DNA of 64,000 bases, from the NCBI GenBank assembly GCA_910575705.1, contig CAJTFG010000001.1, positions 310,001 through 374,000 on the forward strand, in the 5' to 3' direction. This DNA comes from Erysipelotrichales bacterium. GTDB taxonomy: Bacteria > Bacillota_I > Bacilli_A > Erysipelotrichales > Erysipelotrichaceae. Position 1 is the stretch's first letter. Each line of letters starts with the position of its first letter. The notes beneath the pieces are model-generated. The model had not been told where the DNA came from, made no database searches, and was given only the letters and a program-made list of their open reading frames with translations. Positions 9,717 to 15,457 of this stretch are shown here, piece after piece. The position numbers were made by a program, and so were the translations under genes.

Positions 9717-9873
9717 GTATTATTTATAGAAATACATAAAAAATATACGGCATCGGAAGTTTCTGTCTATCATCTGTATTTCTTCCTAAGTTCGTATTAT
9801 AATAGATACGTTTGACAATACTAATTTACTTATGATAAAAATCTGCATATGATAAGCGGAAAGGATGTTGCAT

Positions 9874-10443
9874 ATGAACTCATTTCAAACGTATCGCAAG
9901 CTGTTTGCTTCTACTTTTTATTTAAGCGCCTTTACATTTGGCGGCGGCTATGTCATCGTACCGCTGATGAAAAAGAAATTTGTCGATGAACTGCATTGGA
10001 TCGAAGAAACGGAAATGCTGGATCTCACAGCCATTGCCCAATCAGCACCGGGGGCTATGGCTATCAACGCTTCCATCCTAATCGGATATCGCATCGCCGG
10101 CTTTATCGGCGCTATAGTCACGATCTTAGGAACCGTTCTTCCGCCGTTGATCATTCTTTCTGTCATTTCTTTATTCTATCAGACATTTCAGTCTAACCAG
10201 ATCGTTAAAATCGTGTTAAAGGGGATGCAGGCCGGCGTTGCGGCCGTTGTGATCGACGTTGTCTATACGATGGCAAAGGGTATTGTTTCTCAAAAACAGC
10301 TGCTGCCGATCATCATTATGATCATCTCGTTTATCGCCGGCTACTTCCTTTCCATCAACGTCATGTATATCATCCTCATATGCGGCGTATTCGGAGCCGT
10401 TAATGGCTTTCATGAAGAAAAAGCAAGAAAGGAGCGTTCTTAA
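9874..10443 (+). CDS. Chromate transporter family (CHR), first half-subunit
   Basis: About 189 aa membrane protein with about five hydrophobic segments. The CHR N-terminal signature FTFGGGYVIVPLM and the AQSAPGAMAINASI motif are visible. Short CHR proteins work as pairs of homologous halves with opposite membrane orientation, and the second half follows directly. Start at 9874 is preferred over the ATG at 9865 because that ATG lies inside the Shine-Dalgarno (AAAGGATG). Substrate may be chromate, sulfate or another anion. Confidence 0.85.
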   Translation: MNSFQTYRKLFASTFYLSAFTFGGGYVIVPLMKKKFVDELHWIEETEMLDLTAIAQSAPGAMAINASILIGYRIAGFIGAIVTILGTVLPPLIILSVISLFYQTFQSNQIVKIVLKGMQAGVAAVVIDVVYTMAKGIVSQKQLLPIIIMIISFIAGYFLSINVMYIILICGVFGAVNGFHEEKARKERS

Positions 10444-10997
10444 TGATCTATCTGCAATTATTCTGGAGTTTCTTCCAAATCGGATTGTTCAGCATCGGCG
10501 GCGGCTATGCGGCTCTGCCGCTGATTCAGACCCAAGTCGTTCAAGTACACTCTTGGATAACGATGAATGAATTTAACGATCTGATCACCATATCACAGAT
10601 GACACCGGGACCGATCGCCATTAATTCCGCAACCTTTGTCGGCAATCAGATCGCCGGGCTCGGCGGGGCGATCATTTCTACCCTTGGCTGTATCATGCCA
10701 TCCTGCATCATTGTATCCATACTGGCTTACTTATACTTTAAATATAAAAATATGACCATACTGCAAGGCATCCTCAAAGGTCTTCGTCCTGCCGTTGTTG
10801 CGCTAATTGCCAGTGCAGGTCTTACCATTTTCATTACTGCAATATGGGGCGAATCCATCCAATGGGAAACAACCGACATTACCAATGCATGTCTGTTTAT
10901 CATGGCAATGATCATGCTCAGGAAATTTAAAGCTGACCCTACACTTACCATGATATCCTGCGGCTGTTTAAGCGTTATGATTTATCTTGTATTTTAA
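10443..10997 (+). CDS. Chromate transporter family (CHR), second half-subunit
   Basis: 184 aa, paralogous to the upstream gene: FSIGGGYAALPLIQ, ISQMTPGPIAINSATFVG and several membrane helices. Its ATG overlaps the stop of the first subunit (TAATG at 10441-10445), so equal production is expected. Terminated by a strong hairpin near 11118. Confidence 0.87.
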   Translation: MIYLQLFWSFFQIGLFSIGGGYAALPLIQTQVVQVHSWITMNEFNDLITISQMTPGPIAINSATFVGNQIAGLGGAIISTLGCIMPSCIIVSILAYLYFKYKNMTILQGILKGLRPAVVALIASAGLTIFITAIWGESIQWETTDITNACLFIMAMIMLRKFKADPTLTMISCGCLSVMIYLVF

Positions 10998-11366: not shown

Positions 11367-12938
11367 TTAATTTCTAAATATATAACCATCACACGGCATA
11401 TCCCATGCTTCATGATCCGTATGAAGCAGTTCCTTTGATAAAGAGAATACAAAATCTTTGATCCTATCATCAACCGATATCTTCTTCACCGATTCCAAAC
11501 ACCCCTCAGGACATGCCATCACTTTTATAAAATCATATACCGCTTCTTGATGAAGGACAGCATCCATCAGCTTAGCAGCATCACTTAACCCGGTAGCAAC
11601 GGCTATACGAATTTTTCTGCCATAAAAATCAAATTCCGCTTCCTTCCATGGTCTCCCGTTATATGCCGACAATACATCCCCGAGTTCTGCACGTTCTTCT
11701 GCAGTGCCACTAGAAAAACCAGACAGCACATCAAATACACTTTCCTCCATATGTTCTATATCAATGTGACAAGTACGCATCATATGCGTAATTTCTCTTA
11801 TAGTTAAAACCGCATCTACATCCTGTCCGATCTTTGCATCTCCCATGACCGCAAGATCGGCTTCATACTTTTTCGCAATACATGGCATGAGAGAAACGCT
11901 GACAATCTGTTGGGATTCTATAGAAAACTGCCGGGCATATTGCGTTTTCACGATCGCACCCATAATCTGCTGTGGCGATTTCAAGGCAGATAAATTCTCG
12001 GTCATTTGCGGATAGTGCGCTTTTACAAACTGCACCCAACTTGGACAACTAGATGCCAGCATCGGCATATGTTCTTGCTGTTTTAAACGTTTTAAAAACT
12101 CGCGCTGTTCTTCCGCAAGCATCCAGTCGTATGCGGCATCCGTATTAACAACATGATCAAAACCGATCTTCCGCAATACACCGATCATCTTGTTTATCGT
12201 TTTCTGACTACGTTCAAACCCTAATTCTTCTCCCCATGCCGAAAGCATGGAAGCGGAAGCCTGGATTATCGTTATCTTTTCTTTGTCATCTATGCTTTTC
12301 CATACGTAATCCGTATCATCACGCTCCCGCAGTGCACCGACAGGACAATATGCTATGCACTGTCCGCATAAGGAACAATCAGAATCTTCGATCCTTCGAT
12401 TTTCGGACACATCGACAGTGGTTCTCGCTCCCGTATTTAAAATATCCCATACATGAAGTCCCTGTATTTTTTCACACACTTGCACACAGCGCATGCATTT
12501 TATACATTTATCACTATCTTTTATAAATGGATACCCCTGATACCACGGCTCTTTCTTTACCCGCTTATCATATGGCACTTTTAGAATATTCAAATCATTG
12601 GCAATATGTTGAAGAGCGCAGTTTCCGCTCTGCACACAAAATGCACATTCACAGTTATGCTGCGATAAAAGCAGCTCTGCATTTGTCTTTCTGGTGCTTC
12701 GTACCTTAGGACTATCCGTATATATAACCATTCCCTCTTCTACTATACAATTACACGCTGTCGCAAGACGCTCTCTGCCTTCTATTTCTATCAGGCACAT
12801 GCGACATGCCCCGATAGCATTGATATCTTTCAAATAACAAAGTGTCGGTATATGGATATGATGTCTGCGCGATGCTTCTAAAACTGTTTCTTTTTCATAC
12901 GCCTGCACATCCTGCCCATTAATCACGATCCTGATCAT
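11367..12938 (-). CDS. [FeFe]-hydrogenase-like iron-sulfur protein with altered H-cluster motifs
   Basis: About 523 aa. N-terminus: NuoG/HydA-like [2Fe-2S] domain (IPTLCYL...GACRMCLIEI), a His-Cys [4Fe-4S] site (HNCECAFCVQSGNCALQ), then two ferredoxin clusters (CIKCMRCVQVC, CSLCGQCIAYCPVGA). The H-cluster domain keeps the four [4Fe-4S] ligand cysteines (SSCPSW, MPC..K, MACPEGC). But motif L1 reads SSCPSW instead of TSCCPGW, losing the proton-relay Cys, and L3 lacks the usual GGGQ after the last Cys. The protein may be a sensory or low-activity hydrogenase homologue rather than a main H2-evolving enzyme. It overlaps the next upstream gene by 20 bp. Confidence 0.85.
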   Translation of the reverse strand: MIRIVINGQDVQAYEKETVLEASRRHHIHIPTLCYLKDINAIGACRMCLIEIEGRERLATACNCIVEEGMVIYTDSPKVRSTRKTNAELLLSQHNCECAFCVQSGNCALQHIANDLNILKVPYDKRVKKEPWYQGYPFIKDSDKCIKCMRCVQVCEKIQGLHVWDILNTGARTTVDVSENRRIEDSDCSLCGQCIAYCPVGALRERDDTDYVWKSIDDKEKITIIQASASMLSAWGEELGFERSQKTINKMIGVLRKIGFDHVVNTDAAYDWMLAEEQREFLKRLKQQEHMPMLASSCPSWVQFVKAHYPQMTENLSALKSPQQIMGAIVKTQYARQFSIESQQIVSVSLMPCIAKKYEADLAVMGDAKIGQDVDAVLTIREITHMMRTCHIDIEHMEESVFDVLSGFSSGTAEERAELGDVLSAYNGRPWKEAEFDFYGRKIRIAVATGLSDAAKLMDAVLHQEAVYDFIKVMACPEGCLESVKKISVDDRIKDFVFSLSKELLHTDHEAWDMPCDGYIFRN

Positions 12939-13368
12939 GCCGCTCTTCTTCCCCCTCTGCGCCCTTATGTCTGCGATTGCAAATGCATCGTCCACTTAAA
13001 ATATGCTCCTCATAATCATCATAAAATTTGTGCATACCCCTCAAAACTACTCCTGCTGCTTCATATCCGATCTCACAATCCGCACTGGCATAAATACTCT
13101 CTACTGTCCTCTTGATCAGATCGATGACAGAAAGCGTAGCCTCACCATCCAAAACACGCTTCAGCAATGTCTGAAGCTGCCCCAATCCGATCCTGCACGG
13201 AGCGCATTTCCCGCATGTCTGCGCATGACAAATCTTTAAAAAAGACACCGTCATATCCACCGGACAAAAGTCAGCGGAATCATCAAAAATTCGTCTTTCC
13301 AGATCCGCATACAGATCTCTTGTCACCTGCGGCGACGTTCGGGAAGACATGATCGTCAGTCTACTCAT
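12919..13368 (-). CDS. Truncated NuoF/HydB-like [4Fe-4S] protein
   Basis: About 149 aa. Only the C-terminal NADH_4Fe-4S region of NuoF is recognisable: ICHAQTCGKCAPCRIG, then a distant Cys (YASADCEIGYEAAG) matching the fourth cluster ligand. The FMN/NADH-binding domains are absent, so it cannot itself oxidise NADH. The tail after GRCICNRRHK is low-complexity and charged. Start at 13368 follows TTAGGAGGAAAAGAT. Translation is coupled to the hydrogenase-like gene, suggesting a small electron-transfer partner. Confidence 0.7.
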   Translation of the reverse strand: MSRLTIMSSRTSPQVTRDLYADLERRIFDDSADFCPVDMTVSFLKICHAQTCGKCAPCRIGLGQLQTLLKRVLDGEATLSVIDLIKRTVESIYASADCEIGYEAAGVVLRGMHKFYDDYEEHILSGRCICNRRHKGAEGEEERHDQDRD

Positions 13369-13498
13369 ATCTTTTCCTCCTAAAATAATTATGTTCACTT
13401 TCATAATAAGACATAATCTTTCGATTTTCCACTTTTCTTTCATTTATGGCATTTAGAATTCGATTCTGCCTGTTTTTTATAAAATTCCCCGGGTAATA

Positions 13499-13534
13499 AA
13501 AAAAACCGTAACCGCCTCGTGTTACAGTTTTATA
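13499..13534 (-). terminator. Terminator after prmC
   Basis: Stem AAAACTGTAAC / GTTACGGTTTT on the minus strand (one G-T pair), followed by T residues; it overlaps the prmC stop. Confidence 0.7.
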
Positions 13535-14387
13535 CATCAAAATAGATGAAAAGCATCCGGTCTTTACCGTTGATATCCTTTAATACTTCGATCTCTGCCT
13601 CAGGGAAAAATTCCTTCGCCAAAGCGGTCAATGCCGCTTTCTGCTGATAGCCGATCTCAAACGCCATCATCGCTTTTTCATTCAATACCTTCGGTGCATT
13701 TTCAAAAATCATACGATAAAATTTCAAACCGTCGCTGCCGCCAAAAAGAGCTACGTGCGGCTCATAATTAACAACACTATCCTCCATCTCTTCATCTTCC
13801 GGTATATACGGCGGATTACTGATAAGAATATCCGCTTTTATCTTACGATCGATAAACGGCTCTAGCATATCGCCTACACAAAAGCATACGACCGCATCGT
13901 TGGTCTTCGCGTTTTCATTAGCGATCATCACTGCTTTCTGTGAAATGTCGCTTGCCAGAATATGCAGGCTCGGTTCCTCTTTCTTCAATGCGATCGCGAT
14001 CGCTCCGCTTCCCGTTCCCACATCCAAAAGCACAGCGCCTTTATCTTTAGGGAAACGCTCATCATAAGCCGCTAATATGTTGGCAACGAGCTCTTCCGTT
14101 TCTGGACGAGGGATCAAAACATCTCCATTTACCTTTAAACGATATCCGTAAAACCATGTAAATCCCAAAATATGATCTAGCGGTTTTCCTTCCACGAGCT
14201 GATCGATGCCCTGTTCGTATTCCTCGATCAGTTCCTGCGGCATCTCTGTATCATATTCCATATATAGATTATGAGACTCCATATTCGTAAGCTCCAGCAT
14301 ATACAACAATGCCGCCTGTTCTCCGCGATCCGCTTTCAGCATCCGCTCCTGCGCTTTTTTTAATATTTCTTTATAGCTGGCCATCAT
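13530..14387 (-). CDS. prmC: Release factor glutamine methyltransferase
   Basis: 285 aa SAM-dependent N5-glutamine methyltransferase that modifies the GGQ motif of RF1/RF2. An N-terminal helical domain recognises the factor. The Rossmann domain shows LLDVGTGSGAIAIAL and the substrate-binding ILISNPPYIP. The first ATG overlaps the prfA stop (ATGA), the standard prfA-prmC arrangement. Confidence 0.95.
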   Translation of the reverse strand: MMASYKEILKKAQERMLKADRGEQAALLYMLELTNMESHNLYMEYDTEMPQELIEEYEQGIDQLVEGKPLDHILGFTWFYGYRLKVNGDVLIPRPETEELVANILAAYDERFPKDKGAVLLDVGTGSGAIAIALKKEEPSLHILASDISQKAVMIANENAKTNDAVVCFCVGDMLEPFIDRKIKADILISNPPYIPEDEEMEDSVVNYEPHVALFGGSDGLKFYRMIFENAPKVLNEKAMMAFEIGYQQKAALTALAKEFFPEAEIEVLKDINGKDRMLFIYFDV

Positions 14388-15457
14388 GCATTCCCTGCCA
14401 GCTTTTCCTGCTGATCCGCAGCTTGAAGCGCATCGAACAATTCCTGCACTCTTCCTTCCATGATGCGATCCAATTGCTGTACCGTATACCCGATGCGATG
14501 ATCCGTTACGCGGTTTTGCGGATAATTATACGTACGTATCTTCTCCGAACGATCTCCTGTACCGATCTTGCTGCGGCGTTCCATACCTTGTTCCTCTTCA
14601 AGCTTTCGCTGATGTTCTTCATACACACGGGAACGTATCGTCATCAAAGCTGTAGCCCGATTCTCATGCTGCGAGCGTCCATCCTGACATTTTACGACGA
14701 TCCCCGTCGGCTTATGAATGATCCGCACGGCAGAGTCCGTCTTATTGATATGCTGTCCTCCGGCTCCGGATGAACGCATTGTTTCGATTTCCAAGTCATT
14801 CATATCGATATCGAAATCTTCTTCTTCGATGACCGGCGTCACAAGGACGGTTGCGGTAGACGTATGTATCCTGCCTTGTGATTCCGTCTTCGGAACACGC
14901 TGTACTCGGTGACTACCGGATTCAAATTTAAACATACCGTAAGCGCCGTCTCCTTTTACCTCAAAGGAAACCAATGAAAAACCACCGGCTTCACAGTCAT
15001 CCATTTCAATGATCTCCGTACGCCATCCGACAGCTTCTATATACTTTCCATACATACGGTAAAGATCACCGGCAAAGATATTCCCTTCATCTCCACCGGC
15101 CGCACCGCGTATCTCGACGATGCAATCATGGGAATCGTTGGGATCCTTCGGTATTAAAAGAATCTCCAGTTTATTCAGATATTCCGTCTGTTTCGGCTCC
15201 AGCTCTTCGATCTCTGCCTTCGCCATCTCTTTGATTTCCTTATCATCTTCCATCAGCAGAGCTTTTGCTTCTTCCAGCTGCTCCACGCATTTCTTATATT
15301 CTGTATATGTTTCCACGACTTGTGTAAGATCCGCCTGTTCACGTCCCAGTTTCGCAAGCATCTTATTATCCGATACCACCTCCGGCGACATCATCAGTTC
15401 ATTGATCTCATGATAACGATTTACCATTCCTTCCAGCCGCTCTATCATAACGCTCAT
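14384..15457 (-). CDS. prfA: Peptide chain release factor 1
   Basis: 357 aa RF1, which reads UAA and UAG stops. The peptidyl-tRNA hydrolysis motif is in MRSSGAGGQHINKT. The tripeptide anticodon region is around FKFESGSHRVQRVPKTESQG, which is RF1-like. No frameshift site, as expected for RF1. Start at 15457 follows TAAGGAGGC. Two-gene operon with prmC. Confidence 0.96.
   Translation of the reverse strand: MSVMIERLEGMVNRYHEINELMMSPEVVSDNKMLAKLGREQADLTQVVETYTEYKKCVEQLEEAKALLMEDDKEIKEMAKAEIEELEPKQTEYLNKLEILLIPKDPNDSHDCIVEIRGAAGGDEGNIFAGDLYRMYGKYIEAVGWRTEIIEMDDCEAGGFSLVSFEVKGDGAYGMFKFESGSHRVQRVPKTESQGRIHTSTATVLVTPVIEEEDFDIDMNDLEIETMRSSGAGGQHINKTDSAVRIIHKPTGIVVKCQDGRSQHENRATALMTIRSRVYEEHQRKLEEEQGMERRSKIGTGDRSEKIRTYNYPQNRVTDHRIGYTVQQLDRIMEGRVQELFDALQAADQQEKLAGNA

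Follow-up and report, generated by a model that had tools for sequence, protein, structure and literature searches.

Nar1 is a eukaryotic hydrogenase-like protein that has no [2Fe] subcluster, occurs in cells without maturases, and can be essential (PMC12621388, in excerpt). Loss of the proton-relay cysteine is a mark of the putative sensory [FeFe]-hydrogenase groups C and D, in which M353, M497, and other proton-path residues are also replaced or lacking (PMC8163306, in excerpt). Within group A, the rule by which HydDB recognizes class A2 (“glutamate synthase-linked, putative”) inspects the downstream gene (PMC5037454, in excerpt).

The locus described here lies in a stretch of 64,000 nucleotides that was analyzed as a whole (the window). 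It appears to hold a hydrogenase gene as it stands after damage to the active site with the wiring intact, which makes the turn of this fold to a non-hydrogenase, as in Nar1, testable. Going by the sequence, we lean toward a role for the protein as an Fe-S relay that carries out no H2 chemistry and is thus a non-hydrogenase. A match to PF02906, or to “hydrogenase,” need not imply H2 metabolism.

Architecture and active-site residues of the hydA-like protein

The hydA-like gene fills the interval that an earlier note on this DNA had assigned to it; the note gave no strand, and the coding sequence is on the minus strand (Table 1). It begins with an ATG at 12938, a start that agrees with the homologues, and ends with a stop at 11369-11367, with no stop or frameshift in its 523 codons. 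The plus strand has many stops in the frame of this coding sequence, and these, together with the strong homology, rule out a chance open reading frame (ORF) or a wrong strand. A Pfam scan identifies the H-domain (PF02906; E 7.2e-71), and phmmer against the PDB reaches E 2.5e-109 with an electron-bifurcating HydA1. The closest solved structures are the HydA subunits of electron-bifurcating hydrogenases (8a6t, 7q4v, and 7p5h), along with CpI. AlphaFold modeling of the window protein and two relatives was poor (pLDDT 50).

The M3 architecture is complete, with a [2Fe-2S] site, a His-Cys3 [4Fe-4S] site, two ferredoxin-type [4Fe-4S] sites, and the H-domain. The protein was aligned with 19 homologues. 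Of these, 14 were close-clade members with complete ORFs, and five were outgroups chosen from the many further sequences retrieved; L009, which contains a run of N, and a group B paralogue (L002) were omitted. All 15 accessory-cluster cysteines that are invariant in the 19 homologues are present, as are His94 and the four cubane cysteines (C298, C353, C476, and C480), just as the earlier note had claimed for the cluster ligands. The columns of C353, C476, and C480 hold Cys in 19/19 homologues and that of C298 in 15/19. In four of the 19 aligned group A homologues (L010, L014, L020, and L057), L1 reads TSCSPGW, with the relay Cys kept and Ser in place of the second L1 Cys, which is normally a cubane ligand. 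The HydA1 chain of 7q4v has this same L1 pattern.

The L1 motif SSCPSW and the missing GGGQ, both pointed out earlier, are confirmed: L1 reads ASSCPSW, with Ser in a column where every aligned homologue has the relay Cys, and L3 reads MACPEGCLESVKK. What the earlier note had missed were the deletions next to the GGVMEA motif and in the C-terminal tail, as well as the truncation of the partner gene. Three residues of the 2Fe pocket are changed in the alignment with CpI (A230S, P231A, and F417R, in CpI numbering), and E279, E282, R286, S319, K358, M353, and M497 of the proton path and pocket are retained. The deletions were read from the alignment with the 19 homologues, and the residue changes were read from the CpI alignment as well. 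The window protein scores 299 and 504 bits on the NCBI group A and A6 models (TIGR02512 and NF040763), reaching neither cutoff (406 and 765), whereas the orthologue in genome G039 scores 499 and 780 bits and exceeds both.

Table 1. Window coordinates of the hydA-like gene, its sites and motifs, and the adjoining genes
Feature	Position	Strand	Remarks
hydA-like CDS	11367..12938	minus	523 aa; M3-type [FeFe]-hydrogenase homologue, active site damaged
Tail after L3	11442..11498	minus	GGGQP gone; ~35 residues absent in all up to LLHTDHEAWDMP
L3 motif MACPEGC	11499..11519	minus	Both ligand Cys kept
~22-residue gap after FG-x-x-GGVMEA motif	11649..11672	minus	Motif altered: F417 replaced by R, GGVMEA by GDVLSA
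L2 motif MPCIAKK	11868..11888	minus	Intact (M353, C355, K358 of CpI)
L1 motif ASSCPSW	12036..12056	minus	Relay Cys299 (CpI) replaced by Ser297; ligand Cys298 kept
Two ferredoxin-type [4Fe-4S] sites, C145-C155 and C188-C198	12345..12506	minus	Kept
His94-Cys98-Cys101-Cys107 [4Fe-4S] site	12618..12659	minus	Kept, including His94
[2Fe-2S] ligands C34, C45, C48, C62	12753..12839	minus	Kept; Cys in 19/19 homologues
Partner ORF	12919..13443	minus	174 aa (homologues start at 13368); carries just the NuoF-C-type [4Fe-4S] domain
prmC-prfA	13530..15457	minus	Beside the pair; named by reading; 66% and 82% identity to L041

The truncated partner gene and the origin of the pair

The partner ORF lies upstream of the hydA-like gene and overlaps it by 20 bases, and both ORFs stay open across all of the losses. 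Full partner gene pairs were read in L041, L042, L049, and L083 (with the family scan run on the L041 gene); in these, the partner is a protein of ~610 aa that joins a NuoF-C-type [4Fe-4S] domain to a GltD-type NAD(P)H/FAD oxidoreductase. The window partner has 61% identity to the 610-aa protein of a relative over residues 1-131, and there the homology ends; the protein has shrunk from ~610 to ~150 residues and is without the GltD-type NAD(P)H/FAD part. Because that part is absent, the operon is without its input end as well as its H2 end. Searching the rest of the genome with the GltD part gave one strong match, to a GltA-type protein of 496 aa encoded separately on contig C2, and two further matches with E values of 1e-4 or worse. 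An in-frame junction at a shared GRC of the partner was considered and dropped, because the reading frame of the final codons differs from that of the GltD end.

A terminator scan found 5 sites, compared with 1.6 in shuffles. One of these, on the minus strand at 13531-13502 directly after prmC, would separate the pair from prmC. The promoter scan found 4 sites, compared with 8.2 in shuffles. At 9865-10997 on the plus strand, convergent with the hydA-like gene, the window encodes two half-size chromate transporters in tandem (PF02417; E 8.1e-47 and 9.9e-50).

The earlier note had proposed placing the protein in the hydrogenase phylogeny (groups A to D). It clusters with intact GltD-linked group A enzymes of G039, G275, and G276 (of one genus) and of G006; among the 19 homologues, the joining node has a support of 76 and the G039/G275/G276/G006 clade itself one of 100, in a tree that was built from group A sequences alone and whose deeper nodes range from 33 to 76 (weak at 33 to 61). 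The prfA and prmC genes are also found near the intact hydA operon of G039 (L041). Because they lie near the pair in both genomes, the window gene is probably the orthologue, by place, of the G039 gene. Horizontal gain of the pair is not favored, given that prfA and prmC are close by as in G039. A plasmid search gave no match. No second copy of the degenerate form was found among the best-scoring loci of 272 genomes of the family, and no other genome of the window's genus was among the matches listed.

Maturation genes in the genome and its relatives

The earlier note had also suggested looking for the HydE, HydF, and HydG maturases and for a canonical paralogue. In this genome (G000), which is 100% complete, all three maturases are under the cutoff. 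HydG has no match, in a search in which Thermotoga maritima is among the genomes that register. The best HydF score is 85 of 326 bits, from an ORF of 459 aa that contains two GTPase matches of this kind, and the best HydE score is 20.9 of 255 bits, from a 423-aa radical-SAM ORF. HypD is absent from the genome as well. A canonical paralogue does exist, but it belongs to group B (L046, 12552-14168, on contig C6 of G000; TIGR04105, 543 bits, cutoff 450), with the motifs TSCCP, PCIAKK, and MACVGGC intact. This intact-motif enzyme thus sits in a genome without maturases over the cutoff. Its contig, as read, also carries genes of a butyrate pathway (thiolase, acyl-CoA dehydrogenase, EtfAB, crotonase, and CoA transferase).

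At a threshold of E 0.001, the window protein has matches in 96 of 117 relatives, some of them confined to the Fe-S part, and HydE is found in 20. The curated model found no HydE in any of the nine relatives with a canonical HydA that were checked besides G028 (G039, G275, G276, G006, G232, G254, G285, G287, and G104), of which G104, G275, G276, and G285 are only 82 to 86% complete. In G006, a single contig of 3.9 Mb (L042, L072, and L073), HydF, HydG, and HypD are likewise absent. Because canonical-HydA relatives also show no HydE, a lack of maturases would not by itself have caused the decay, and the idea that decay followed maturase loss is weakened. Either the relatives have an unrecognized maturation route or many of the homologues run without a [2Fe] cluster.

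Eight of the 117 relatives (G011, G028, G050, G057, G074, G075, G080, and G088) have HydE and HydF without HydG over the cutoff, counting G050, in which HydF is split between two contigs with each piece below the cutoff. HypD is present in seven of these eight genomes versus none of the 12 with all three maturases. The exception, G028 (65% complete), has HydF and a partial HydE at the locus and no Nif-like or Hyp genes there. In the other seven, HydE and/or HydF shares a run with NifH-like, NifD/K-like, and Hyp genes (L070 in G074, L071 in G075, L081 in G011, L082 in G057, L088 in G080, L089 and L090 in G050, and L091 in G088). In six of these seven genomes, the set of HypF, HypC, HypD, and HypE is complete, with HypC identified by PF01455 in each; the contig ends inside the run in G088, and the HydF of G011 and the HydE of G050 are on contigs other than that of the run. 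When the HypA and HypB sequences from two [NiFe] loci were used as queries, no relative of either protein was found in the seven loci. At L070, HypF, HypD, HypE, HydF, and HydE exceed their NCBIfam cutoffs, and NifH scores 305 bits against a cutoff of 394. L070 and L071 each encode four NifD/K-like proteins, three of which match PF00148 and one of which matches no family. The HydG-bearing loci that were read (5 of 12) all have the order HydE-HydG-HydF, and the Nif-like and Hyp genes seen in L070 are missing from every one. One of the five, L093, has a HypA-like ORF nearby (54 bits). The HypD genes of G039 and G041 occur with HypA, HypB, and HypC and adjoin complex-I-type genes, which is the arrangement of membrane [NiFe] hydrogenases.

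HypCDEF chemistry builds the Fe(CN)2CO unit of [NiFe] enzymes. The gene content of the runs suggests that this chemistry, with a nitrogenase-like reductase, may replace HydG, which would make the runs a candidate HydG-free pathway to the H-cluster. If so, the H-cluster would have a second biosynthetic source for its CO and CN ligands, and the runs would matter more than the window gene itself. A literature search returned no such system among the matches listed. In Clostridium acetogens, HydG was undetectable in 5 of 8 with no straightforward explanation given, and four of those five are reported to have HypCDEF without HypA or HypB; going by the locus tags, HydE and HydF are not shown as neighbors of the Hyp genes (PMC9431212, in excerpt). 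A HydG-free pathway could bear on the HydG gap described in that source.

Uneven erosion and comparison with known systems

Losses were counted at columns invariant in the other 19 sequences, separately for the Fe-S part (residues 1-213) and the H-domain (residues 214-523). No invariant residue of the Fe-S part is changed or deleted (0/35), compared with 35/85 in the H-domain (Fisher P = 4.4e-7), and the difference holds for substitutions alone (0/35 versus 25/75; P = 1.7e-5). Repeating the count for each of the 19 homologues in turn gives at most 3/38 (L050) in the Fe-S part and 4/54 (L021) in the H-domain. Within the close clade (15 sequences), the window protein has lost 6/57 in the Fe-S part versus 50/114 in the H-domain (P = 5.8e-6); L050 likewise reaches 6/57 in the Fe-S part, and no other member exceeds 4/68 in the H-domain. 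On a fixed tree, the Fe-S part gives the window protein a terminal branch of 0.40 (L004, 0.118), and the H-domain gives it one of 1.16 (L004, 0.261). Codon positions 1 and 2 still change less than position 3, with window-L003 ratios of 0.39 in the Fe-S part and 0.55 in the H-domain, although third positions are near saturation and the degenerate form is known from one genome only. The L003-L004 ratios are lower (0.26 and 0.36), and the Fe-S part is therefore also somewhat relaxed (0.39 versus 0.26).

Under the relay reading, the protein would have descended vertically from a GltD-linked group A [FeFe]-hydrogenase and be catalytically dead. Both chemical ends are damaged, with several 2Fe-pocket residues and the relay Cys lost at one and the flavin/NAD(P)H domain absent from the operon at the other; the Fe-S chain that links them has kept its ligands. 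The protein would bind its accessory clusters and the cubane, and it would be unable to hold or use a [2Fe] subcluster. Together with its small [4Fe-4S] partner, it may pass electrons between other carriers in the manner of a polyferredoxin. In its favor are the uneven losses and branch lengths, the two open ORFs, the slower change at codon positions 1 and 2, the lack of HypD and of maturases over the cutoff, the partner with its [4Fe-4S] domain but no GltD part, and the precedent of Nar1. However, the operon has no partner with a catalytic site, which is a point against a relay, as are the retained E279, E282, R286, S319, K358, M353, and M497, the relaxation of the Fe-S part with its 6/57 changes in the close clade, and a possible unrecognized maturation route in the canonical relatives. 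The more specific proposal, which we advance tentatively and with some doubt, is that a bacterial hydrogenase took the step to a non-hydrogenase independently of Nar1: having lost its H2 and flavin ends, it would now serve purely as an Fe-S electron wire and be maintained by selection along with its one-cluster partner.

A rather unlikely alternative, though one that carries weight, is that the gene is a nonfunctional relic in slow decay, in which loss of the H2 function was followed by erosion that reached the partner and the H-domain first, with the Fe-S part surviving so far by chance or through residual use. The damage to both catalytic ends, the several deletions, and the shrinking of the partner are all consistent with decay, as are the lack of a second degenerate copy among the best-scoring loci of the family and the codon-position ratio, which is raised in both parts of the protein. 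However, 523 codons remain free of stops and frameshifts, invariant losses are confined to the H-domain in the comparison with all 19 homologues, and codon positions 1 and 2 are still slower than position 3, all of which argue against a relic.

The reading offered in the earlier note was that of a sensory or altered-function protein. The second half of that description fits, in view of the invariant residues lost from the H-domain and the scores below the model cutoffs; the first does not. Like groups C and D, here including TmHydS and TamHydS, the protein has not conserved Cys299, and the four cubane ligands are retained, as a sensory or otherwise modified hydrogenase with a full H-cluster would require. 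Unlike those groups, it has no PAS domain in the Pfam scan and no C-terminal Cx2Cx4Cx16C cluster (C516 is the only Cys after L3), it retains M353, M497, and the remaining proton-path residues, and it clusters with group A. Membership in groups C and D is rejected on this domain content and these kept residues. A full H-cluster is also hard to reconcile with the loss of A230-P231 and F417, the ~22 residues absent nearby, a partner that shows a [4Fe-4S] domain only, and the lack of maturases over the cutoff, and we regard such a hydrogenase as improbable. That the protein is still an active H2 enzyme, with protons moving by another path and maturation by an unrecognized route, is the least probable account, for although the remaining proton-path residues are retained and canonical relatives without a recognizable HydE hint that another maturation route may exist, the losses in the pocket and at GGGQ, the deletions, and the missing reductase part of the partner all speak against it.

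With the relay reading preferred, the locus can be set beside the described systems. The best solved-structure matches, the electron-bifurcating HydA proteins of HydABC, have the same cluster chain; we take them to be catalytic subunits of bifurcating complexes with NuoE/NuoF-type partners. The nearest intact counterpart is the G039 orthologue (L041), of the HydDB A2 type, which has the same M3 Fe-S chain, the same two-gene order, and prfA-prmC nearby, at 50.5% identity. Compared with it, the window locus has lost the relay Cys, the pocket residues, GGGQ, central and C-terminal segments, and the GltD part of the partner. The GltD-type partner gene by which A2 is recognized is thus absent, with the N-terminal [4Fe-4S] domain alone remaining, and where that gene is whole it lies upstream and not downstream as in the HydDB rule, so that “A2” is used loosely here.

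The likeness to Nar1/IOP1 is one of kind and by description, that of a hydrogenase-like protein that keeps the cubane site, and implies no shared function. In the window protein, the cubane ligands are kept and the pocket residues lost. Unlike Nar1/IOP1, the window protein is closest to bacterial group A and has a full M3 N terminus with a [2Fe-2S] site and no known partner in cytosolic Fe-S assembly.
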